Shown here piece by piece: positions 8,651 to 16,701 of a stretch of DNA of 64,000 bases. The notes beneath the pieces were generated by a model, which did no database searches, was not told where the DNA came from, and was given only the letters and a program-made list of their open reading frames with translations. The DNA is taken from NCBI RefSeq assembly GCF_001586785.1, contig NZ_LUFH02000002.1, positions 1 to 64,000 on the forward strand, in the 5' to 3' direction. The position numbers and the translations under genes are program-made. The stretch comes from Sphaerospermopsis aphanizomenoides BCCUSP55. Lineage in GTDB: Bacteria > Cyanobacteriota > Cyanobacteriia > Cyanobacteriales > Nostocaceae. How positions within the stretch are numbered: position 1 is the first letter of the stretch; the number at the start of each line of letters is the position of its first letter.

Positions 8651-9706
8651 ATGAATACCAGACTACAGCATATAGATATAGCAAAAGGTATAGGCATATT
8701 GTTGGTTGTATTTGGTCATAACAATATAAAAGGTAAGTTATTCTACATCATATTTTCTTTTCATCTCCCATTATTTCTATTTTTATCGGGCTTGTTTTTC
8801 AATGCTGATGGCAAATTAAAAGAATTAATGTGGAGTAAATTTGACTCAATTATCAAGCCATATTTGACAACGTTGATAATTGTGTATCCTATGTTTCCGA
8901 ATAATTCAATTATTAATTATTTAGCTGGAATCATTTATAGTACCAGTTTTACCATTCCTCTTGTATGGGGACCTTTGTGGTTTCTTACTCATCTTTGGGC
9001 TGTTTGGGTGTTTTCTTGGTTGTTTGTCAGGGTAACAAAACTAAGTTCTATCAAAAGAATTTTCCAAGTTTTGCTGCTGTTGTTATTACTATTAATAGGT
9101 TTTTTAATTCGTCGTGTTTTTTGGCAAATCCCTATTCGTTTTGGTGGAGTTACATTTGATTTATTTAGTCAGAATTTTTTACTACCAGGTCTTCCCTTGA
9201 GCATTGATATTGTATTTATTAGTGGTTTTTTCTTTTTACTAGGATTTTTGTTAAAGCAAAAGATTTTTGATTTTAAAGTTAAATACAAATATTTGATATT
9301 TAGTTTATTATTATTTGGTTTTTGTCATTATTATTTTCAATATACGATTGATTTAAACTTGAGAAGATACGATCACTTAATAATATCAACGTTAGAGGCA
9401 ATTTCTGGAATATATATGGTTTTGTGTATTTCCAGTTGGATATCTAGATATAAGGTCATAGGAGAGATATTTGCATTTATTGGTACTGGTAGTTTATTTA
9501 TTTTAATCTTCCATTATATTTTCCAAAGCACAGCATATAATTTTTTGACAACATACTATGAGTCCAACTATTTCACTAAATTTTGTGCTTTTATTATTGG
9601 TTCTACGATTCCTTTGTTGATTTGGGAATTGGTCAAACGAAATGACTACTTGTCTTTGTTGTTTTTACCATTAAAATCTAATAAGTTGATGACAAAGAAG
9701 AAATGA
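8651..9706 (+). CDS. Acyltransferase family 3 membrane protein
   Basis: The 351-residue integral membrane protein belongs to the acyltransferase-3 (OafA/NolL-like) family, which O-acetylates sugars of polysaccharides or lipids. The start HIDIAKGIGILLVVFGHNN is the family signature, with the conserved His at residue 23 in the first membrane span. About ten hydrophobic segments follow. Composition is markedly AT-rich with many Phe and Leu codons, unlike ndhD, which suggests acquisition. It stands alone, facing the large minus-strand operon. Confidence 0.85.
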   Translation: MNTRLQHIDIAKGIGILLVVFGHNNIKGKLFYIIFSFHLPLFLFLSGLFFNADGKLKELMWSKFDSIIKPYLTTLIIVYPMFPNNSIINYLAGIIYSTSFTIPLVWGPLWFLTHLWAVWVFSWLFVRVTKLSSIKRIFQVLLLLLLLLIGFLIRRVFWQIPIRFGGVTFDLFSQNFLLPGLPLSIDIVFISGFFFLLGFLLKQKIFDFKVKYKYLIFSLLLFGFCHYYFQYTIDLNLRRYDHLIISTLEAISGIYMVLCISSWISRYKVIGEIFAFIGTGSLFILIFHYIFQSTAYNFLTTYYESNYFTKFCAFIIGSTIPLLIWELVKRNDYLSLLFLPLKSNKLMTKKK

Positions 9707-9974: not shown

Positions 9975-12900
9975 TTAACAAGAAAGAATCAAATTTAAAA
10001 CATTCAACTCATTAGAATTTAACAGATATTTTTCTGTAAATATTTTGTTTCTAATTTCTTCTAAGCTATAACTTCTAAATACCACAAATGGGAATTCTTG
10101 ATAATTATGACCTATGGGTAAAACGTTACCAACAGGATATAATGAACGAATATATATAGATAAAATATCTTTAAAACGTTGATCTTCCGGTTCTTCTGGT
10201 TTAGTTTCAAAATATTCTTTCATCACTGCACCACTAATAAACGCAAATAATGGTAAAGCATAATATTGATCTGTGTGTTGACTACTCTGTTCAAGTCTTT
10301 GTGTTTTTTCTACCCCATCGCTTAACTTTTTCACCAATTCTATAACATCTTTAATAGCAGATCGTAAATTTTCTGGATAAGAAGATTTGCGACGGGTAAT
10401 TTCCTGCATATTTTTCCACAGTTCTTCATTAGCGTAGGTTGTTATATCAGCTAGTCGCATTTGATAAGTTTCTTCTAACTTATTAGCAATAGGAACTACC
10501 AGTAAAGCTCCACTCATATAACCAGATTCAAGTTTACCAAAATCTAGTAACTTATCGAGAGTATGAGCAATTTCTGAAAACTTACTGTTGAAAGACTTTT
10601 GTAATGCTAAATAATTAGACTCAGTTGCATTTTGAATTACAAAATCTGCTCGTCCTAGCAGGTTTTCTAAGTTTGTATAAACTTGTTTCAGCAATACATC
10701 GCTTTTAGTGCGTTGATATTCTGTTTTTAATTGACGGATAAGGTTGACCATTTGAGCAGAAAATGTTTCTCCAGCAGCAAAAACAGATTTTCCACCGATA
10801 GGAATCAGAATAAAATTATCTCGACCTATGCGACCATAACCAAAAATTCTGGTCATGATAGCAGCTTTTAAAATCAATAAAATATTTAACAGACTTAGCG
10901 CACTTTCTTGTAAAGATATTTCTGCGTCATCTTGATAATAAACTGCTCGTTCTGCTAAGTAAAAAATTAGTTCTTTATCCTGATTATCTATATTCTCATT
11001 TCCTCGACCTCTATAAATAACCTGAATTATTTCCATCAGGTTTTTTTCGATTTCAAATTTGGGAATTTCTACTAGAATATGTTTAGCTTTAGGAAAAGAT
11101 AAACCCCGACTACCGGAAGCAGTCATAAAAATGACTTTGACATTTTCCTGAAATTTTTTAATTTCTTTCTTTTCATTCTCAGAAATATTTGCGTGTATTT
11201 CTAAATAATCTATACATTTTTCAAATGTTCCCCTGTGTCGCTTAATTTTATCCATCAGTTCTGCTAATTTACGCTTGTTTTGAATATAAACAATTACCTG
11301 TTCCACATCTGATCGTTGAAGAAGAGATTCAATATCCATTAAAATTTCATTTTGTAATCCAGATTCTAAATTATATTGTTGCTTTAATCCGGATTTTTCG
11401 CTAAATTTAGAAGATTCAACCAATGCTTGATAACTTATAGATAAACTACTTGCTGGGTAAGAGTTAGTATTAATAACAGTTGATTCTAAACCTTTAAATG
11501 TCAATGGTTGAACAGAAAGAGGTTGAGCAGTATCTACAGCACGACGAAAATATATTTTATCTGGTTCTGGAGAAGTATCAGATAGGTGTTGAATAATCAC
11601 ATTTTTATCAACAATTGAAGCATCAGCGACAATTACTTTAGTATTAAAACCATGTTGAGAATCCATTAATTGATACTTTTCTATTATTTGATGGATTCCA
11701 TTTAAAAACTCTACACCTCCATCATCACCTGTAATTTCATCAATCATGATGAATAGATCCTTAATTCTCCCAGATATTTCTTGCATTTGTTGATGTAAAA
11801 CTATACCATCTGTGGTATTGTAAGCATTGTTAAATAACTGATCAAAATGCTTTAAGGTGTTACCCGCATCAGTTATTTTCAAGGATTGAATAGAAGCGGT
11901 TGCGATAATATTATTTGATATTTTTTGTTCCACAATTGTGGAAATAGCTTCGCAAATGCTATTGAGAACACCCTGCTTTTTTTGTCCAACATCTTGAATT
12001 ACATCTTCCTTCGTTCGCTGGAGTCTGTCCGCACGTCTGGCTTTTTGTTGTTCAATATCCCTACTATCGAGAAAGTGAACAGACTTTTTCGTAAATTTAC
12101 CCTGACGCTGGTTAGATGTGTATTGAACAGTGTAACGTCCAGGGTTATCTGTAAGTAGGTTACTGTTTGTATTTATAGCTAATAATTTGTCATCAGATAA
12201 TTTTCCAGTATTTTTATCTTTAAATTTTTCGATGATATCTAGATTAACTTGTTTGCGAGGACTGACATAAAAGAAAAGAAAACCTTCATCTATATGTGTT
12301 TTCAAGAAATCAACAATTGCGGTGGTTTTACCAATTCCCGGATTTCCAGTTAAAAATATATAAGTAGATTGAGAAACTAGAGCTTTTTTAATTAATTCAG
12401 CATGAGCATCTCTTAATGTTATAGTTCCAGTTAACCCTAACTCATTCATCAATTCTGAAGGAACTTCTCCGACAGAGTTCATAAATCCACTAATTTTCTC
12501 TGTGTGACGAGGTAAAATATTAATCTTGTCAGCAGGAATTTCTAAAAGAGAATCAACAAACTCTTTACCGCGTTCAAAACTCTTGTAAGCACTGTTTTTA
12601 ATTTTATTTAAAACTTGTTTGCGTGCTTGGGGAATTTCTTGAGGACTAGAATCATGTTTGTAAATCTGATAACAGGTTTTTAAGATATCTACATTTTCTT
12701 GTTGAATGGATATTGTGCTAATGCCGCGATCACTATATCCTATAGAATTGAAAACTACATTTGCTTTATCTGGGAGAATAGTAGTTTTTTGCAGAAATTC
12801 ATAGAAGCTATGGAGATAACAAGCAGCTTGAATTGATTTGGTACTTTCTTTATCTCTGTATTTAAAAGCAGTAAAGTATGTCTTTAACCCTTCCGAGAAT

Positions 12901-13586
12901 TCTAAACCAAAAGACTCAGTAACAATACGAAGAATAGAAAAGACACTTTTAAAACGTAAATAGCTAATATCACTCATTAAAAAACGTCGGATAATTGCTA
13001 TATAATCAATATCTTCAATATCTTCATTAGTAATAATAGAAAACACAGATAAATCAACACAAATAACTCGATATTCTCTACGATTACGTAATAAAATTAA
13101 AGTATCTGCATTCAGAAATTCACCTTTTTTCTTATAAGCTGTAATATATTGAGAGATGTTATCTAAGTTATCAAATTGAGTTAATACTTCACCAAACCAG
13201 TGAAAATCATCCTTGGTGTCATAAGTACCAATACTGTTATCACCATTAAACCGACATTGATAATATAATATTTCCACATTTGGTAACTTATGTGGTTTAT
13301 CCCAACCTGTGGATTTGATGTATTCTCGAAAGAAATTAAAACCACTTAAAAAACCCTTTTGAATAAAAAATATACTCCATTTTTTAGCCATTTCTCTTTC
13401 TACAGTGCTGATAACTTTATCAACAAATCGCTGTTGGATTTTCTGTAACTTTAGCTGCTGTAATTCTTGACGATATAAGTTACCAAATTTATGCTTAATT
13501 TTCTTTTCTTCAATATAAGCAAGAACCCCAACATTAAAACCTACTTCAAACAAACGTCCCAAATCTTCAGCTATTTTAGATTTCAT
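9975..13586 (-). CDS. Large helicase-like P-loop ATPase with degenerate nuclease-like N-terminal segment
   Basis: The 1203-residue protein matches no named family I know. Residues 1-400 contain NADTLILLRNRREYRVICVDLS (about 159-180), which resembles the D-x(n)-(D/E)-x-K core strand pair of PD-(D/E)XK nucleases but has Ser instead of Lys. Walker A is TGNPGIGKT (413-421), a Walker B-like strand is LFIMIDEIT (611-619), VIVADAS is at 651-657, and a late helicase-like block has MTASGSRGLSFPKA (821-834) then QVIYRGRG (855-862), resembling SF2 motifs V and VI. The last 300 residues are helical. The ATG has a good Shine-Dalgarno (GGAGAT). It follows the 996-residue gene by 36 bp, so the two form an operon. 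DNA or RNA remodelling is inferred. Confidence 0.8.
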   Translation of the reverse strand: MKSKIAEDLGRLFEVGFNVGVLAYIEEKKIKHKFGNLYRQELQQLKLQKIQQRFVDKVISTVEREMAKKWSIFFIQKGFLSGFNFFREYIKSTGWDKPHKLPNVEILYYQCRFNGDNSIGTYDTKDDFHWFGEVLTQFDNLDNISQYITAYKKKGEFLNADTLILLRNRREYRVICVDLSVFSIITNEDIEDIDYIAIIRRFLMSDISYLRFKSVFSILRIVTESFGLEFSEGLKTYFTAFKYRDKESTKSIQAACYLHSFYEFLQKTTILPDKANVVFNSIGYSDRGISTISIQQENVDILKTCYQIYKHDSSPQEIPQARKQVLNKIKNSAYKSFERGKEFVDSLLEIPADKINILPRHTEKISGFMNSVGEVPSELMNELGLTGTITLRDAHAELIKKALVSQSTYIFLTGNPGIGKTTAIVDFLKTHIDEGFLFFYVSPRKQVNLDIIEKFKDKNTGKLSDDKLLAINTNSNLLTDNPGRYTVQYTSNQRQGKFTKKSVHFLDSRDIEQQKARRADRLQRTKEDVIQDVGQKKQGVLNSICEAISTIVEQKISNNIIATASIQSLKITDAGNTLKHFDQLFNNAYNTTDGIVLHQQMQEISGRIKDLFIMIDEITGDDGGVEFLNGIHQIIEKYQLMDSQHGFNTKVIVADASIVDKNVIIQHLSDTSPEPDKIYFRRAVDTAQPLSVQPLTFKGLESTVINTNSYPASSLSISYQALVESSKFSEKSGLKQQYNLESGLQNEILMDIESLLQRSDVEQVIVYIQNKRKLAELMDKIKRHRGTFEKCIDYLEIHANISENEKKEIKKFQENVKVIFMTASGSRGLSFPKAKHILVEIPKFEIEKNLMEIIQVIYRGRGNENIDNQDKELIFYLAERAVYYQDDAEISLQESALSLLNILLILKAAIMTRIFGYGRIGRDNFILIPIGGKSVFAAGETFSAQMVNLIRQLKTEYQRTKSDVLLKQVYTNLENLLGRADFVIQNATESNYLALQKSFNSKFSEIAHTLDKLLDFGKLESGYMSGALLVVPIANKLEETYQMRLADITTYANEELWKNMQEITRRKSSYPENLRSAIKDVIELVKKLSDGVEKTQRLEQSSQHTDQYYALPLFAFISGAVMKEYFETKPEEPEDQRFKDILSIYIRSLYPVGNVLPIGHNYQEFPFVVFRSYSLEEIRNKIFTEKYLLNSNELNVLNLILSC

Positions 13587-13622
13587 GTTAATCTCCAGAT
13601 AATTTTTGTGTTAATCTTTGCT

Positions 13623-16613
13623 TTACTTTGCGTTTAAAATTGTTCTCACAAGAGTTAAAAATGCTAAAGAGTTAAATTCACCTTTTCCTTTAAAATGATT
13701 AAACAAAGAAAGCTTACCAACGGATTTATCTCCGATCAAATTTTCGTAAGGATCTAGTTTAATGTGAATTTGTTTGTCAGCTTTTTGGTAGCGCGAGAAG
13801 TGAAATAAAGTCAAATATTGCAAGATATCATCTTTTAATAAACCATCAAAAATAAGTCCTTTGTGGATATCTTCATCGTCAAGTATTCCTTGATAAATAT
13901 TTAACAGTGTCGCATAAGAAATCACACCTCTATAATATCTTTCTTCCTTTTTACCTACTGTTATTCCATTAAATAAATTGAAAAATACAACAGATTTTTT
14001 GCTAGGATCTTCGAGTAAATTAGTCAGTTCTGTTGTATCCTGAATATACAAAGAACTTGCTGCGATATTTTCTAGTTTAACCGCATAGTATTTATCAAAA
14101 AACATGGGATAGATTTTAATATCATGATATTCAGATTTTAAACCTCTAATTACATCTCTGGACATAAAGAAAAGACCATCATCATCTTCTGTCTGTGTTA
14201 GATGTAATGTACTGGTATAAGGTGCTTTAGCAATATAGACAATGTGCTTATATCCCATCCGATAAAGCTGAGTAACTTTATCGATAATCACACTGGGATT
14301 TGTAAACATTTCTTGGTTGTTACAGTTGTCAGAAAAAGTTGTAATTAACTGAAATCTAACAGCACTATCTTTCCTTTGTACACCTATAATTTCTCCCATT
14401 AAGTTGGATATTTTTGCAGAACCACTCCACCCTCGATCACTTTCACGACTGGAGACAATAATAATGGCTAATTTGTCTAATTGGGGAAATTTTGAGGAAC
14501 TATGGAAACTAAATTTTTTGGGTAAAACAGAGTACAAAGAACTCATGGTATTAGGAATTTTAAATCCCAAATCTCGGATATCAATTCCTTGTTCATTAGC
14601 ACGATGTGTTTCGTTAAATAAATGAGATAAAACAGCAGATAAAGAAACTATAAATTTTTCTATCGGTGCATCATCATCTTTACCATGTAGATGTAATCTG
14701 AGAATAGGAATAAATAATCTTTTCTGCTTGTCTAATAAAATTTTAAGACAGATATAAGCAAGCAAACCGTAAGTAAATTTATAAACGAAAGCTTGATGAG
14801 GTTCTAATTTTTTATCTTCTAAACGATAGGGAAATAATAAAAGTTGACTATTTTTGAAATGTTGACTGTAAATCTTTAAACATCTTGGATCATTTAAAGG
14901 TGCAAAAATTACTGGTAATGCACGAATACCATTTAAATCATATTCCATGCTAAAGGTTTCTTGATCATCTGTAGCAAAAAAGTGAATGTCGTTGATAGTA
15001 ACTTTAGCTGGTAGGGTACAAAGAGAATTTGTTTCTGTATTTGGTTTTCCTAAAGATATGTATTTTAGAACTTCTTTGGGATTTTTTCTCAGAACAGGTT
15101 TAAAAAATGTATTGTTATTGAAAATATTCTGGGTATCTTCTTCAAGAATGCCGTTTTTTACAGAAATATGTACAGGATAATCTCTTGTGGGAAAAGAAGT
15201 TTTGCGCTTGAGGATATTTTGCAGCACACCCTTGAGACGATTGATTTTAAAATGAACATTAAATTCAGTAAAATCTTCAAAAATTTTCCGTAATAAGTCT
15301 TGTTTTGCTATATCGTCAGAACCTTTAAGAATTGAAATTATTCCTTGTTCAAATCCTGCGATAGGATCATATTTTAATTCATCATTGAGATTATAGTCGT
15401 CTTTTTTTGGATCTTGGAGAGATGCAAATAAAAAGTAGTACAAAAACGCTATTCTTAAGACATTTTTTGCAAATGATTCTCGTTGTAAAGGATCTGCAAG
15501 TGCATCTTTATGTTCTTGACTATCTGGGTTAAGGATATTAAGACGATAATCAAAAACGCTTTTACCACCGTCAGTATGAACTTTACCATCAAACTTTAAT
15601 TTTAGTCCAAATACAAATTGAATTTCTCCCCCATTTTCATCTTTTGTTTCTCCCAAAAAACCTTCTACTATGGGAATAATTGGCAGCTTATCAAATGCTT
15701 CACCACGAGAAAAAGCATCTTTGTAATTAACTTCAGCACCTGCATAAGTGACGAGGTAATCACCATCAGCTTTGTTGCTATCGTTGATATATTCTTCTAT
15801 AAGTCTGAGTCTTCTAATCAAATCTTCTAAATAAATAGCACCTGCGGCATTTAGATTGCTAGTTTTGGTGTTAATATTTTCTAGCAGAAACTCTAAATAA
15901 TTTATTTGTGCTTGTTTTTTGAGTTTTCCTAATGTTTCTTTATTGACAACATCTCGCAAACGAAAAAGATCAGAATTTTTATCTTTTTCTAAATCTTCAA
16001 GAATGTATTCTAAGTCTTGTTTTTCTTCAGCATTTGCACCCGCAAATTTAATCCGACTATAATTTTCTAAACCCTTTCGCAATTCTGTATCAAAATCACT
16101 GGTTTTCTGGACAGAAATAGTTAGCTTATGAACTTTTAGTAATTCTCTGTTTTCAGGATTCTTTTTATTAAAGGTTAACCGTTGTTTTTGCAAATTGTCA
16201 TAACCAGGAAAAGTATAGGTAAAGTCTAATTTAGCTGTTGTCCCTTTAAATGTCTGTAAATCTGTAATTAATTTACTAATAAATTCCTCTATTGATTCCC
16301 TATTTCCTAATGATGATTCTAATATTTTCTCAACACAATCTTTAATTGCATGAATTTGAGTCCGAAACTTTGCTTCAGAACCTGGACTAATATTTACGGT
16401 AGCAGAACGGACGCTGTTTGCAGATGCTCCCAAGGGATTTTCTACCTGCAAATTAGCTATTTCAGTAGCTATCTGATCAATATTGATTCGTAACCGTTTT
16501 TTATCATCGGAAATTTTAAATATTTGCTGATTTGGTAATACTAATAAAATTTTCGTTAATAAATCAGTATAATCCACATTGGCTAAGTCTGGATTTATTG
16601 CTATTTTGTTCAT
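13623..16613 (-). CDS. Large protein with a possible PIWI-like (RNase H-fold) C-terminal region
   Basis: The 996-residue protein is the first gene of a two-gene operon; AAGGAAGG precedes its ATG. Residues 1-700 show no motif I can name, with a helical N-terminus and several beta-rich stretches. About 712-960 has a strand order like a PIWI module: LAIIIVSSRESD (about 715-726), then GEIIGV, a helix, YKHIVYIAKAPY, IKIYPMFFDKYYAVKLEN, VVFFNLFNGITV, YYRGVISYATLLN and LFHFSRYQKADKQIHIKL. The usual catalytic Asp of strand 1 is absent, so if this is PIWI-like it is probably inactive and would bind a guide or nucleic acid. It could also be an unrelated Rossmann-like fold. The partner helicase suggests a defence role. 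Confidence 0.75.
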   Translation of the reverse strand: MNKIAINPDLANVDYTDLLTKILLVLPNQQIFKISDDKKRLRINIDQIATEIANLQVENPLGASANSVRSATVNISPGSEAKFRTQIHAIKDCVEKILESSLGNRESIEEFISKLITDLQTFKGTTAKLDFTYTFPGYDNLQKQRLTFNKKNPENRELLKVHKLTISVQKTSDFDTELRKGLENYSRIKFAGANAEEKQDLEYILEDLEKDKNSDLFRLRDVVNKETLGKLKKQAQINYLEFLLENINTKTSNLNAAGAIYLEDLIRRLRLIEEYINDSNKADGDYLVTYAGAEVNYKDAFSRGEAFDKLPIIPIVEGFLGETKDENGGEIQFVFGLKLKFDGKVHTDGGKSVFDYRLNILNPDSQEHKDALADPLQRESFAKNVLRIAFLYYFLFASLQDPKKDDYNLNDELKYDPIAGFEQGIISILKGSDDIAKQDLLRKIFEDFTEFNVHFKINRLKGVLQNILKRKTSFPTRDYPVHISVKNGILEEDTQNIFNNNTFFKPVLRKNPKEVLKYISLGKPNTETNSLCTLPAKVTINDIHFFATDDQETFSMEYDLNGIRALPVIFAPLNDPRCLKIYSQHFKNSQLLLFPYRLEDKKLEPHQAFVYKFTYGLLAYICLKILLDKQKRLFIPILRLHLHGKDDDAPIEKFIVSLSAVLSHLFNETHRANEQGIDIRDLGFKIPNTMSSLYSVLPKKFSFHSSSKFPQLDKLAIIIVSSRESDRGWSGSAKISNLMGEIIGVQRKDSAVRFQLITTFSDNCNNQEMFTNPSVIIDKVTQLYRMGYKHIVYIAKAPYTSTLHLTQTEDDDGLFFMSRDVIRGLKSEYHDIKIYPMFFDKYYAVKLENIAASSLYIQDTTELTNLLEDPSKKSVVFFNLFNGITVGKKEERYYRGVISYATLLNIYQGILDDEDIHKGLIFDGLLKDDILQYLTLFHFSRYQKADKQIHIKLDPYENLIGDKSVGKLSLFNHFKGKGEFNSLAFLTLVRTILNAK

Positions 16614-16701
16614 TTACACCCTTCCTTGTTGTCTTGAAAATTACAATTGTTAAATAATAAACCTTTGCAATTTGACAAGTCAAGACACAATAAGCTTGAA
16701 A

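Follow-up and report, generated by a model that had tools for sequence, protein, structure and literature searches.

A two-gene unit encoding a predicted Argonaute-fold protein and an SF2 helicase with a nuclease-like front as a candidate immunity module

Two neighbouring genes on the minus strand of the window, the whole 64-kb stretch of cyanobacterial DNA analysed here, form one unit. One encodes a protein with a predicted Argonaute fold (P0002), the other an SF2 helicase that carries a nuclease-like region at its front (P0001). We consider it fairly probable that this unit is an immunity module in which a catalytically inactive, guided Argonaute-fold protein acts together with the helicase against foreign DNA. 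The immunity reading is supported by the part list, by the co-inheritance of the two genes and by their mobile, patchy distribution. It is limited by the absence of a defence-island signal near the cyanobacterial copies and by the nuclease, which is putative.

The two open reading frames were found with the lengths, the positions and the spacing of 36 bp that had been given in a sequence-only reading of the window (Table 1). Purine-rich, Shine-Dalgarno-like sequences precede both start codons as that reading had claimed, AAGGAAGG before the ATG of P0002 and GGAG before the ATG of P0001. The flanks that it had named were also found, purQ (coding for PurQ) on one side and the gene of an Acyl_transf_3 protein (acyltransferase-3) on the opposite side; purS belongs to the purQ side and the NDH-1 subunit 4 gene to the acyltransferase side. 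The AT-richness that it had noted was borne out, since the pair is the most AT-rich block of the window with a GC content of 0.312, against 0.387 in the remainder, and none of 220 equally long windows taken outside the pair fell below 0.349. The gap between purQ and the pair contains a promoter-like sequence, TTGACT-18-TATTAT, which is a candidate promoter of the pair, a consensus match being no proof of function. No terminator was found when this gap was scanned, and Rfam gave no match between positions 9500 and 17700. In each of 12 comparisons with relatives, the two genes had dN/dS ratios in the range 0.14-0.22. Because of these ratios, and because the gene order is kept across phyla, usually side by side, the pair is more than a chance arrangement.

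Table 1. Features of the two-gene unit in the window
Feature	Position	Strand	Basis
Argonaute/PIWI-fold protein P0002 (predicted fold), 996 aa	13623..16613	-	ORF, AlphaFold2 model, Foldseek and VIA
SF2 helicase with N-terminal PD-(D/E)XK-like domain, P0001, 1203 aa	9975..13586	-	ORF, Pfam Helicase_C, fold searches
PD-(D/E)XK-like signature of P0001: D161, D/E178-x-S180, K246, K250, Q253xxxY257	12816..13106	-	45 aligned homologues
Walker A TGNPGIGKT of P0001, residues 413-421	12324..12350	-	Sequence and alignment
Motifs V and VI of P0001, TASGSRGLSFPK ... QVIYRGRG, residues 822-862	11001..11123	-	Invariant residues, 45 homologues
Promoter-like TTGACT-18-TATTAT	16654..16683	-	10/12 consensus positions; 120-bp gap after purQ
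Shine-Dalgarno-like GGAG ahead of P0001	13593..13596	-	Sequence

The nature of P0002 was first sought in sequence libraries. PADLOC and NCBIfam gave no match at E<=10, and the only Pfam match was Ermin at a chance-level E of 0.18. The Pfam Piwi family (PF02171) was unmatched even at E<=10 by P0002 and by eight divergent homologues, and the Pfam-type matches of these eight proteins all fell below the curated cut-offs. Ordinary pAgos exceed the Piwi cut-off in 14 of 146 cyanobacterial genomes. The pair adds a protein family of the Argonaute superfamily that was unseen by the libraries used, if the fold predicted below is accepted.

The structure of P0002 was predicted with AlphaFold2 from an alignment of 67 sequences (pLDDT 85.2, pTM 0.81) and the model was compared with the PDB. 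With Foldseek, named Argonautes or Argonaute complexes, one of them as SPARDA, occupied 24 of the first 26 rows. The other two were a chain of the CDK8 kinase module and 8jsi, which has an uninformative title. A PIWI module has been reported for the Med13 subunit of the CDK8 kinase module, as PMC3702460 has it, and the matched chain is presumably Med13. The best matches reached 6.9e-4 and 8.3e-4 with probabilities of 0.99-1.0. As these two rows were the only ones at E<=0.001 and unrelated proteins followed from row 27 on, the Foldseek support is modest by itself. With VIA-align, 49 of 50 entries were named Argonaute, PIWI, SPARTA or SPARDA (Z 10.1-11.6), the remaining entry being 8xih, titled 'protein-DNA complex', and the top match had a Z of 11.6 and an rmsd of 4.6 over 342 residues. 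According to the documentation of the tool, the best Z is typically 7-8 when a model has no clear match, so the predicted Argonaute fold of P0002 is well supported. A SPARTA short pAgo aligned to residues 544-990, and most archaeal and short-pAgo chains to about 542-991. The model accordingly places a MID-PIWI (RNase H-like) region at about 550-991, with a PIWI-like core at about 712-950. The sequence-only reading had called the C-terminus PIWI-like and had named structure prediction with Foldseek as the check; Argonautes lead the resulting list, and the fold predicted for this region is that of Argonaute/PIWI and not an unrelated one.

The PIWI-like domain had also been called inactive, and the catalytic positions were therefore inspected, placed by strand order and not by superposition. 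At residues 794-798, the strand end where the second catalytic Asp of PIWI is expected, no D or E was present in any of the 44 homologues aligned, which come from Cyanobacteriota, Chloroflexota and Pseudomonadota. Near the first catalytic position, residue 721 (S721 in P0002) was acidic in 1/44. D726 is D in 40 and N in 4 of the 44 sequences, and since it stands at the end of the same predicted strand (714-728), the first catalytic Asp is possibly retained and could be D726. H938, conserved in 44/44, could be the last member of the catalytic tetrad. The DED[H/D] set as a whole was not found at the positions assigned by strand order. Because the inferred second catalytic position bears no acidic residue, P0002 is probably catalytically inactive. 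The sequence-only reading had called the first catalytic Asp missing, which is less sure; the loss of the second Asp is clearer.

The MID-like QG of P0002 is nearly invariant, with Q675 in 43/44 and G676 in 44/44 sequences. Among the 13 alignment rows shown, a Y-x3-K before the QG is present in the Acetobacter protein (L164) only, and the proteins of the divergent clade B and of Cupriavidus mostly have Y-x3-Q. The P0002 of the window, which belongs to clade A, has neither.

The motifs that had been claimed for P0001, TGNPGIGKT, SRGLSFPKA and QVIYRGRG, are all present, as is DEIT. Pfam matched Helicase_C above the cut-off (E 2.3e-9), and the libraries otherwise gave ATPase matches below the cut-offs and chance matches. 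SF2-type helicases led the fold searches with the structure model (pLDDT 82.6, with a numbering three lower than that of the protein) and match its core at about 380-930. Invariant in 45 sequences were GxPGIGKT, SPR, DE, DAS, R-G-x-S-x-P and Q-x2-YR-x-RG, including R827, P832, Q855, Y858, R859 and R861 with 45/45 each, and Cyanobacteriota, Chloroflexota and Pseudomonadota share the key motif residues without change. With a Walker A, a DExx, motifs V and VI and two RecA-like lobes, P0001 is an SF2 helicase.

The RecB-type PD-(D/E)XK pattern is D...(D/E)xK...QxxxY. In front of the helicase core of P0001, the residues D161, S180, K246, K250, Q253 and Y257 were identical in 45/45 aligned homologues, and residue 178 was D in 32 and E in 13. 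In the model one strand begins with D161, the following strand ends with 178-180, and K246-Y257 open a later helix. Judged from this signature, the front of P0001 appears to be a nuclease-like PD-(D/E)XK domain with a Ser in the usual place of the Lys, and the invariance of the signature in all 45 sequences agrees with the sequence-only reading, which had proposed such a Ser-for-Lys core. The missing catalytic Lys could be supplied by K246 or K250. If the domain were dead, which we regard as rather unlikely, it would hold nucleic acid or a partner, and the pair would work by guided binding and translocation, stripping replication or transcription complexes, or would recruit a host nuclease. 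A dead domain is compatible with the Ser instead of the catalytic Lys in 45/45 sequences, and mutation of the nuclease site of ApsA had only a partial effect according to PMC11096173; the remaining signature positions are nevertheless invariant across phyla, and K246 and K250 are invariant within the QxxxY helix, where either would be a plausible relocated Lys.

Ten N-terminal parts of P0001-like proteins gave no Pfam match above the curated cut-offs; the best match in the Pfam-type searches of these parts and of the divergent P0002-like proteins was BrxC at 2.2e-4, below the cut-off. Behind residue 930 no conserved D...(D/E)xK was found in the 45 sequences, and among D, E, K and H only E1020, E1039 and E1193 reached 80% there. 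No Cys column of P0001 was conserved at >=80% in the 45 sequences. Profile-profile comparisons gave no match for the P0001 N-terminus with 20 PDDEXK_1 proteins, nor for P0002 with 14 long pAgos or with seven true pPIWI-RE reading frames. The positive control, ordinary pAgos against pPIWI-RE, gave nothing either, so these tests, the one with the pPIWI-RE frames included, have no power and were not counted.

Whether the two genes belong together was followed in other genomes. In 292 cyanobacterial genomes searched at E<1e-20, P0001 was present in 41 (single-protein query) and P0002 in 42 (profile query), broken copies included. All 41 genomes with P0001 also hold P0002, and the additional P0002 genome contains a fragment of 209 residues. 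In a separate collection of 80 loci the partner gene was located upstream of the helicase gene on the same strand in 71. The gap was at most 252 bp in 58 of these, 24 of which overlap, and 474-5713 bp in 13. For the other nine loci, six helicases begin at a contig edge, the partner ends about 9 kb upstream of the helicase in L093 and is encoded on a different contig of the same genome in L143, and no partner was found within 8 kb in L100. At L052 and L061, ORFs are inserted between the two genes. The nine loci of clade B, where P0002 has 15-17% identity, show the same order with adjoining genes in 9/9. In the Chloroflexota a strong match was obtained in 7 of 251 genomes, each with a P0002-like stretch within 1.5 kb upstream (7/7); three weaker matches were one fragment and two short matches to the ATPase region.

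Tree distances of P0001 and P0002 correlate with 0.995 for 43 pairs and 0.957 for the 30 clade A pairs, values that are not corrected for species relatedness. The Cupriavidus pair is the sister of the cyanobacterial clade B on both trees. Both trees also put the Ktedonobacter pair within clade A, where its exact position is poorly supported (0.51 on the P0001 tree). The sequence-only reading had staked the pairing on the co-occurrence of homologues in other genomes, and this was found in 41/41 helicase genomes and, as an upstream partner, in 71/80 loci. The genes for P0001 and P0002 form one unit, and wherever both were sought in cyanobacteria a helicase partner accompanies the P0002-type protein.

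Several variants of the arrangement were observed. L091:4954-14665 and L133:4966-14656 contain three genes in the order Argonaute-like, helicase, second Argonaute-like, and the two Argonaute-like proteins of L091 are 47% identical. L090 has a tandem of two pairs, the second cut by the contig end. In L063:4787-8137 a single ORF joins an Argonaute-like front to a helicase back, a natural deletion remnant.

The distribution of the pair on replicons was analysed with plasmid, phage and viral records. P0002 matched six plasmid records, all cyanobacterial and all predicted to be conjugative. P0001 matched 11 and a clade B query four, with Acinetobacter, Cupriavidus and Acetobacter among them. Eight plasmid regions were inspected. 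The pair of Acinetobacter PK01 is placed between HipA/Fic and DUF4011/HigB genes, toxin-antitoxin genes among them, that of A. piscicola among HNH and WYL genes, and that on plasmid C of the laboratory strain Trichormus variabilis ATCC 29413 near a helicase and a cytosine methyltransferase. In a Nostoc plasmid the gene of a CBASS-type cyclase lies about 10-12 kb from the pair, accompanied by an E2-like gene and by genes of a kinase and a PLD protein. Nothing clearly defensive was seen in the Acetobacter and Aulosira plasmid regions, the Cupriavidus record is unannotated at the pair, and the Stanieria plasmid holds the rear half of the helicase only, adjoining a transposase. Downstream of the pair on the Trichormus plasmid C (L166:15689-23736), two large genes with sacsin-type domains stand before a DEAD helicase gene, and the group may be a further defence operon without a name. 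Phage records gave no match to a P0002 query and viral contigs none to the P0001 profile, which speaks against the immunity reading.

A module for competition between plasmids or other elements, which mobile elements would carry to their own benefit, would agree with the predicted conjugative nature of 6/6 plasmid records and with the integrase or transposase genes within 12 kb of the plasmid copies. At least nine of the 30 loci listed, however, are in contigs over 3 Mb, i.e. chromosomes, and we consider such a module unlikely. Since its molecular mechanism would be the same, it differs from the immunity reading in the beneficiary only.

Near the chromosomal cyanobacterial copies no excess of defence genes was detected, with 105 PADLOC families for 140 neighbours versus 132 for 140 controls. 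The neighbours were 140 ORFs from 25 hand-picked loci off the purQ site, with most same-site repeats dropped; L060 and L070 share a site, and the contigs of L056 and L076 belong to the same genome. The controls were 140 of 143 ORFs taken from the same genomes at arbitrary, non-random positions, with regions below 10 kb dropped. The commonest Pfam family of the neighbours, counted there without a control, was Uma2, a putative restriction endonuclease (10/140).

The site beside purQ is variable. Of 30 purQ loci, obtained from 60 genomes searched, 7 have P0002 downstream of purQ and 5 have a different gene there, whereas the other 18 have neither of the two. The alternative gene is HSDR_N_2-like, matching above the Pfam cut-off in one of four loci, below it in two and not at all in one, and similarity served to assign the fifth. 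In these loci (L224, L229, L230, L233 and L245) an AT-rich gene akin to the N-terminus of the type I restriction R subunit occupies the place beside purQ that elsewhere belongs to the pair. Another site is flanked by an AAA gene and a polA-like gene. In the genome of the window it is occupied by a clade A pair (L060), and in a different genome by a clade B pair of opposite orientation (L070). This second, divergent pair of the window's genome (G000:C195, L060:4289-11108) has one in-frame stop in its Argonaute-like gene. Broken copies were also found in G051 with many stops, in G127, in G262 as a chimeric remnant and in G199 with a truncated helicase. Because of the exchangeable sites and the broken copies, the pair fits an exchangeable cargo under changing selection.

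A housekeeping or regulatory role outside defence, for example in R-loop clearing or transcript silencing, was weighed against these observations. Stable inheritance would also explain why the pair recurs beside purQ in Nostocaceae, and both the purifying selection on the two genes and the missing excess of defence genes near the 25 pair loci are in line with such a role. We nevertheless judge it very improbable, given the patchy presence in 41/292 genomes, the plasmid copies, the relatives in other phyla and the wrecked copies in several genomes.

For the immunity reading a mechanism can be drawn by analogy to DdmDE and ApsAB. P0002 would probably bind a short guide through its MID domain, and the guide-loaded protein would find the foreign DNA, presumably that of a plasmid or phage if the analogy holds. 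The target would then be handed to P0001, which would be recruited, load on the displaced strand and translocate, and the element would be cut or stripped. It is possible, although we hold this only tentatively, that the pair represents a further lineage of Argonaute-directed helicase-nuclease immunity, the third beside DdmDE and ApsAB and built separately from them, that spans at least three phyla, carries the nuclease ahead of the helicase with the Lys moved into the QxxxY helix and, in clade A including the window, is without a Tyr-Lys guide pocket. On this reading clade A would have lost the canonical pocket, and its guides would either have an unusual 5' end or be absent altogether. If the pair is DdmDE-like, it would show that a helicase-nuclease has been combined with an inactive Argonaute on more than one occasion; it would also be a new source of DNA-targeting proteins that can be programmed, and gene transfer in cyanobacteria would face a new barrier.

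The pair was finally compared with known systems. Ordinary long and short pAgos of the Pfam Piwi family share the predicted MID-PIWI fold, but P0002 has no Pfam Piwi match. The pPIWI-RE systems likewise link a PIWI-fold protein to an SF2 helicase and a restriction-fold domain, and are described in PMC3702460 as three genes in the order REase, DinG helicase and pPIWI-RE, with a Cys-rich iron-binding region in DinG. An assignment to pPIWI-RE was rejected, since P0002 has no match to PF13032 (RNaseH_pPIWI_RE), the unit has two genes with the PIWI gene first, and the DinG Cys cluster is absent. The sequence-only reading had already set the pair apart from pPIWI-RE, and the same genome encodes a separate, true pPIWI-RE protein. 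The latter is found at G000:C6:11363-12322 (L171) and scores 181.9 bits to PF13032.

The nearest analogues are DdmDE and ApsAB, neither of which the sequence-only reading had named. In DdmDE, from VPI-2 of Vibrio cholerae, a long Argonaute-fold protein that is catalytically inactive is combined with an SF2 helicase bearing a PD-(D/E)XK-type domain (PMC12409362). The pair would follow the same plan, an inactive Argonaute-fold protein and an SF2 helicase in a two-gene unit, and the likeness is one of plan only. In DdmD, as PMC12409362 describes it, the helicase is N-terminal and the nuclease C-terminal, whereas the nuclease-like signature of P0001 is N-terminal and without the Lys. ApsAB of E. 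coli ST38 also combines an Argonaute-like partner that has a MID QG with a helicase-nuclease. According to PMC11096173, ApsA has the motifs GFGKS, DELH, SAT and QAVGRVER and a C-terminal D...DVK nuclease, and ApsB has a MID motif Y-x3-K...QG...K in which the K is required. P0001 differs from ApsA by GNPGIGKT, DEIT, DAS and QVIYRGRG and by the nuclease-like signature before the helicase, and the PIWI RNase H fold, which is not conserved in ApsB according to the same paper, is predicted in P0002.

The pair might still belong, as a highly diverged branch, to the DdmDE/ApsAB family, the helicases of which are said to extend into cyanobacteria. Such membership would account for the common two-part plan, for the QG of P0002 and for the Y-x3-K...QG of the Acetobacter homologue, which resembles ApsB, and ApsAB-like systems are reported in cyanobacteria in PMC11096173. 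The helicase motifs and the C-terminal D...DVK of ApsA described there do not agree with P0001, whose nuclease-like signature stands ahead of the helicase and which has no conserved D...(D/E)xK after residue 930. The sequence matches to the PDB (seven with the P0002 profile at E<=10, 10 with P0001 at E<=1) included no chain labelled DdmD or DdmE, in a library that may contain none. Membership is quite unlikely in our estimate. No description of the pair was found in the literature searched, which left supplementary files and most subscription journals out of reach. In conclusion, the pair combines a probably inactive Argonaute with a helicase and a putative nuclease, a design already known from DdmDE and ApsAB; compared with the published descriptions of these systems, its motif order and its helicase motifs suggest that it is neither an ordinary DdmDE nor an ordinary ApsAB.
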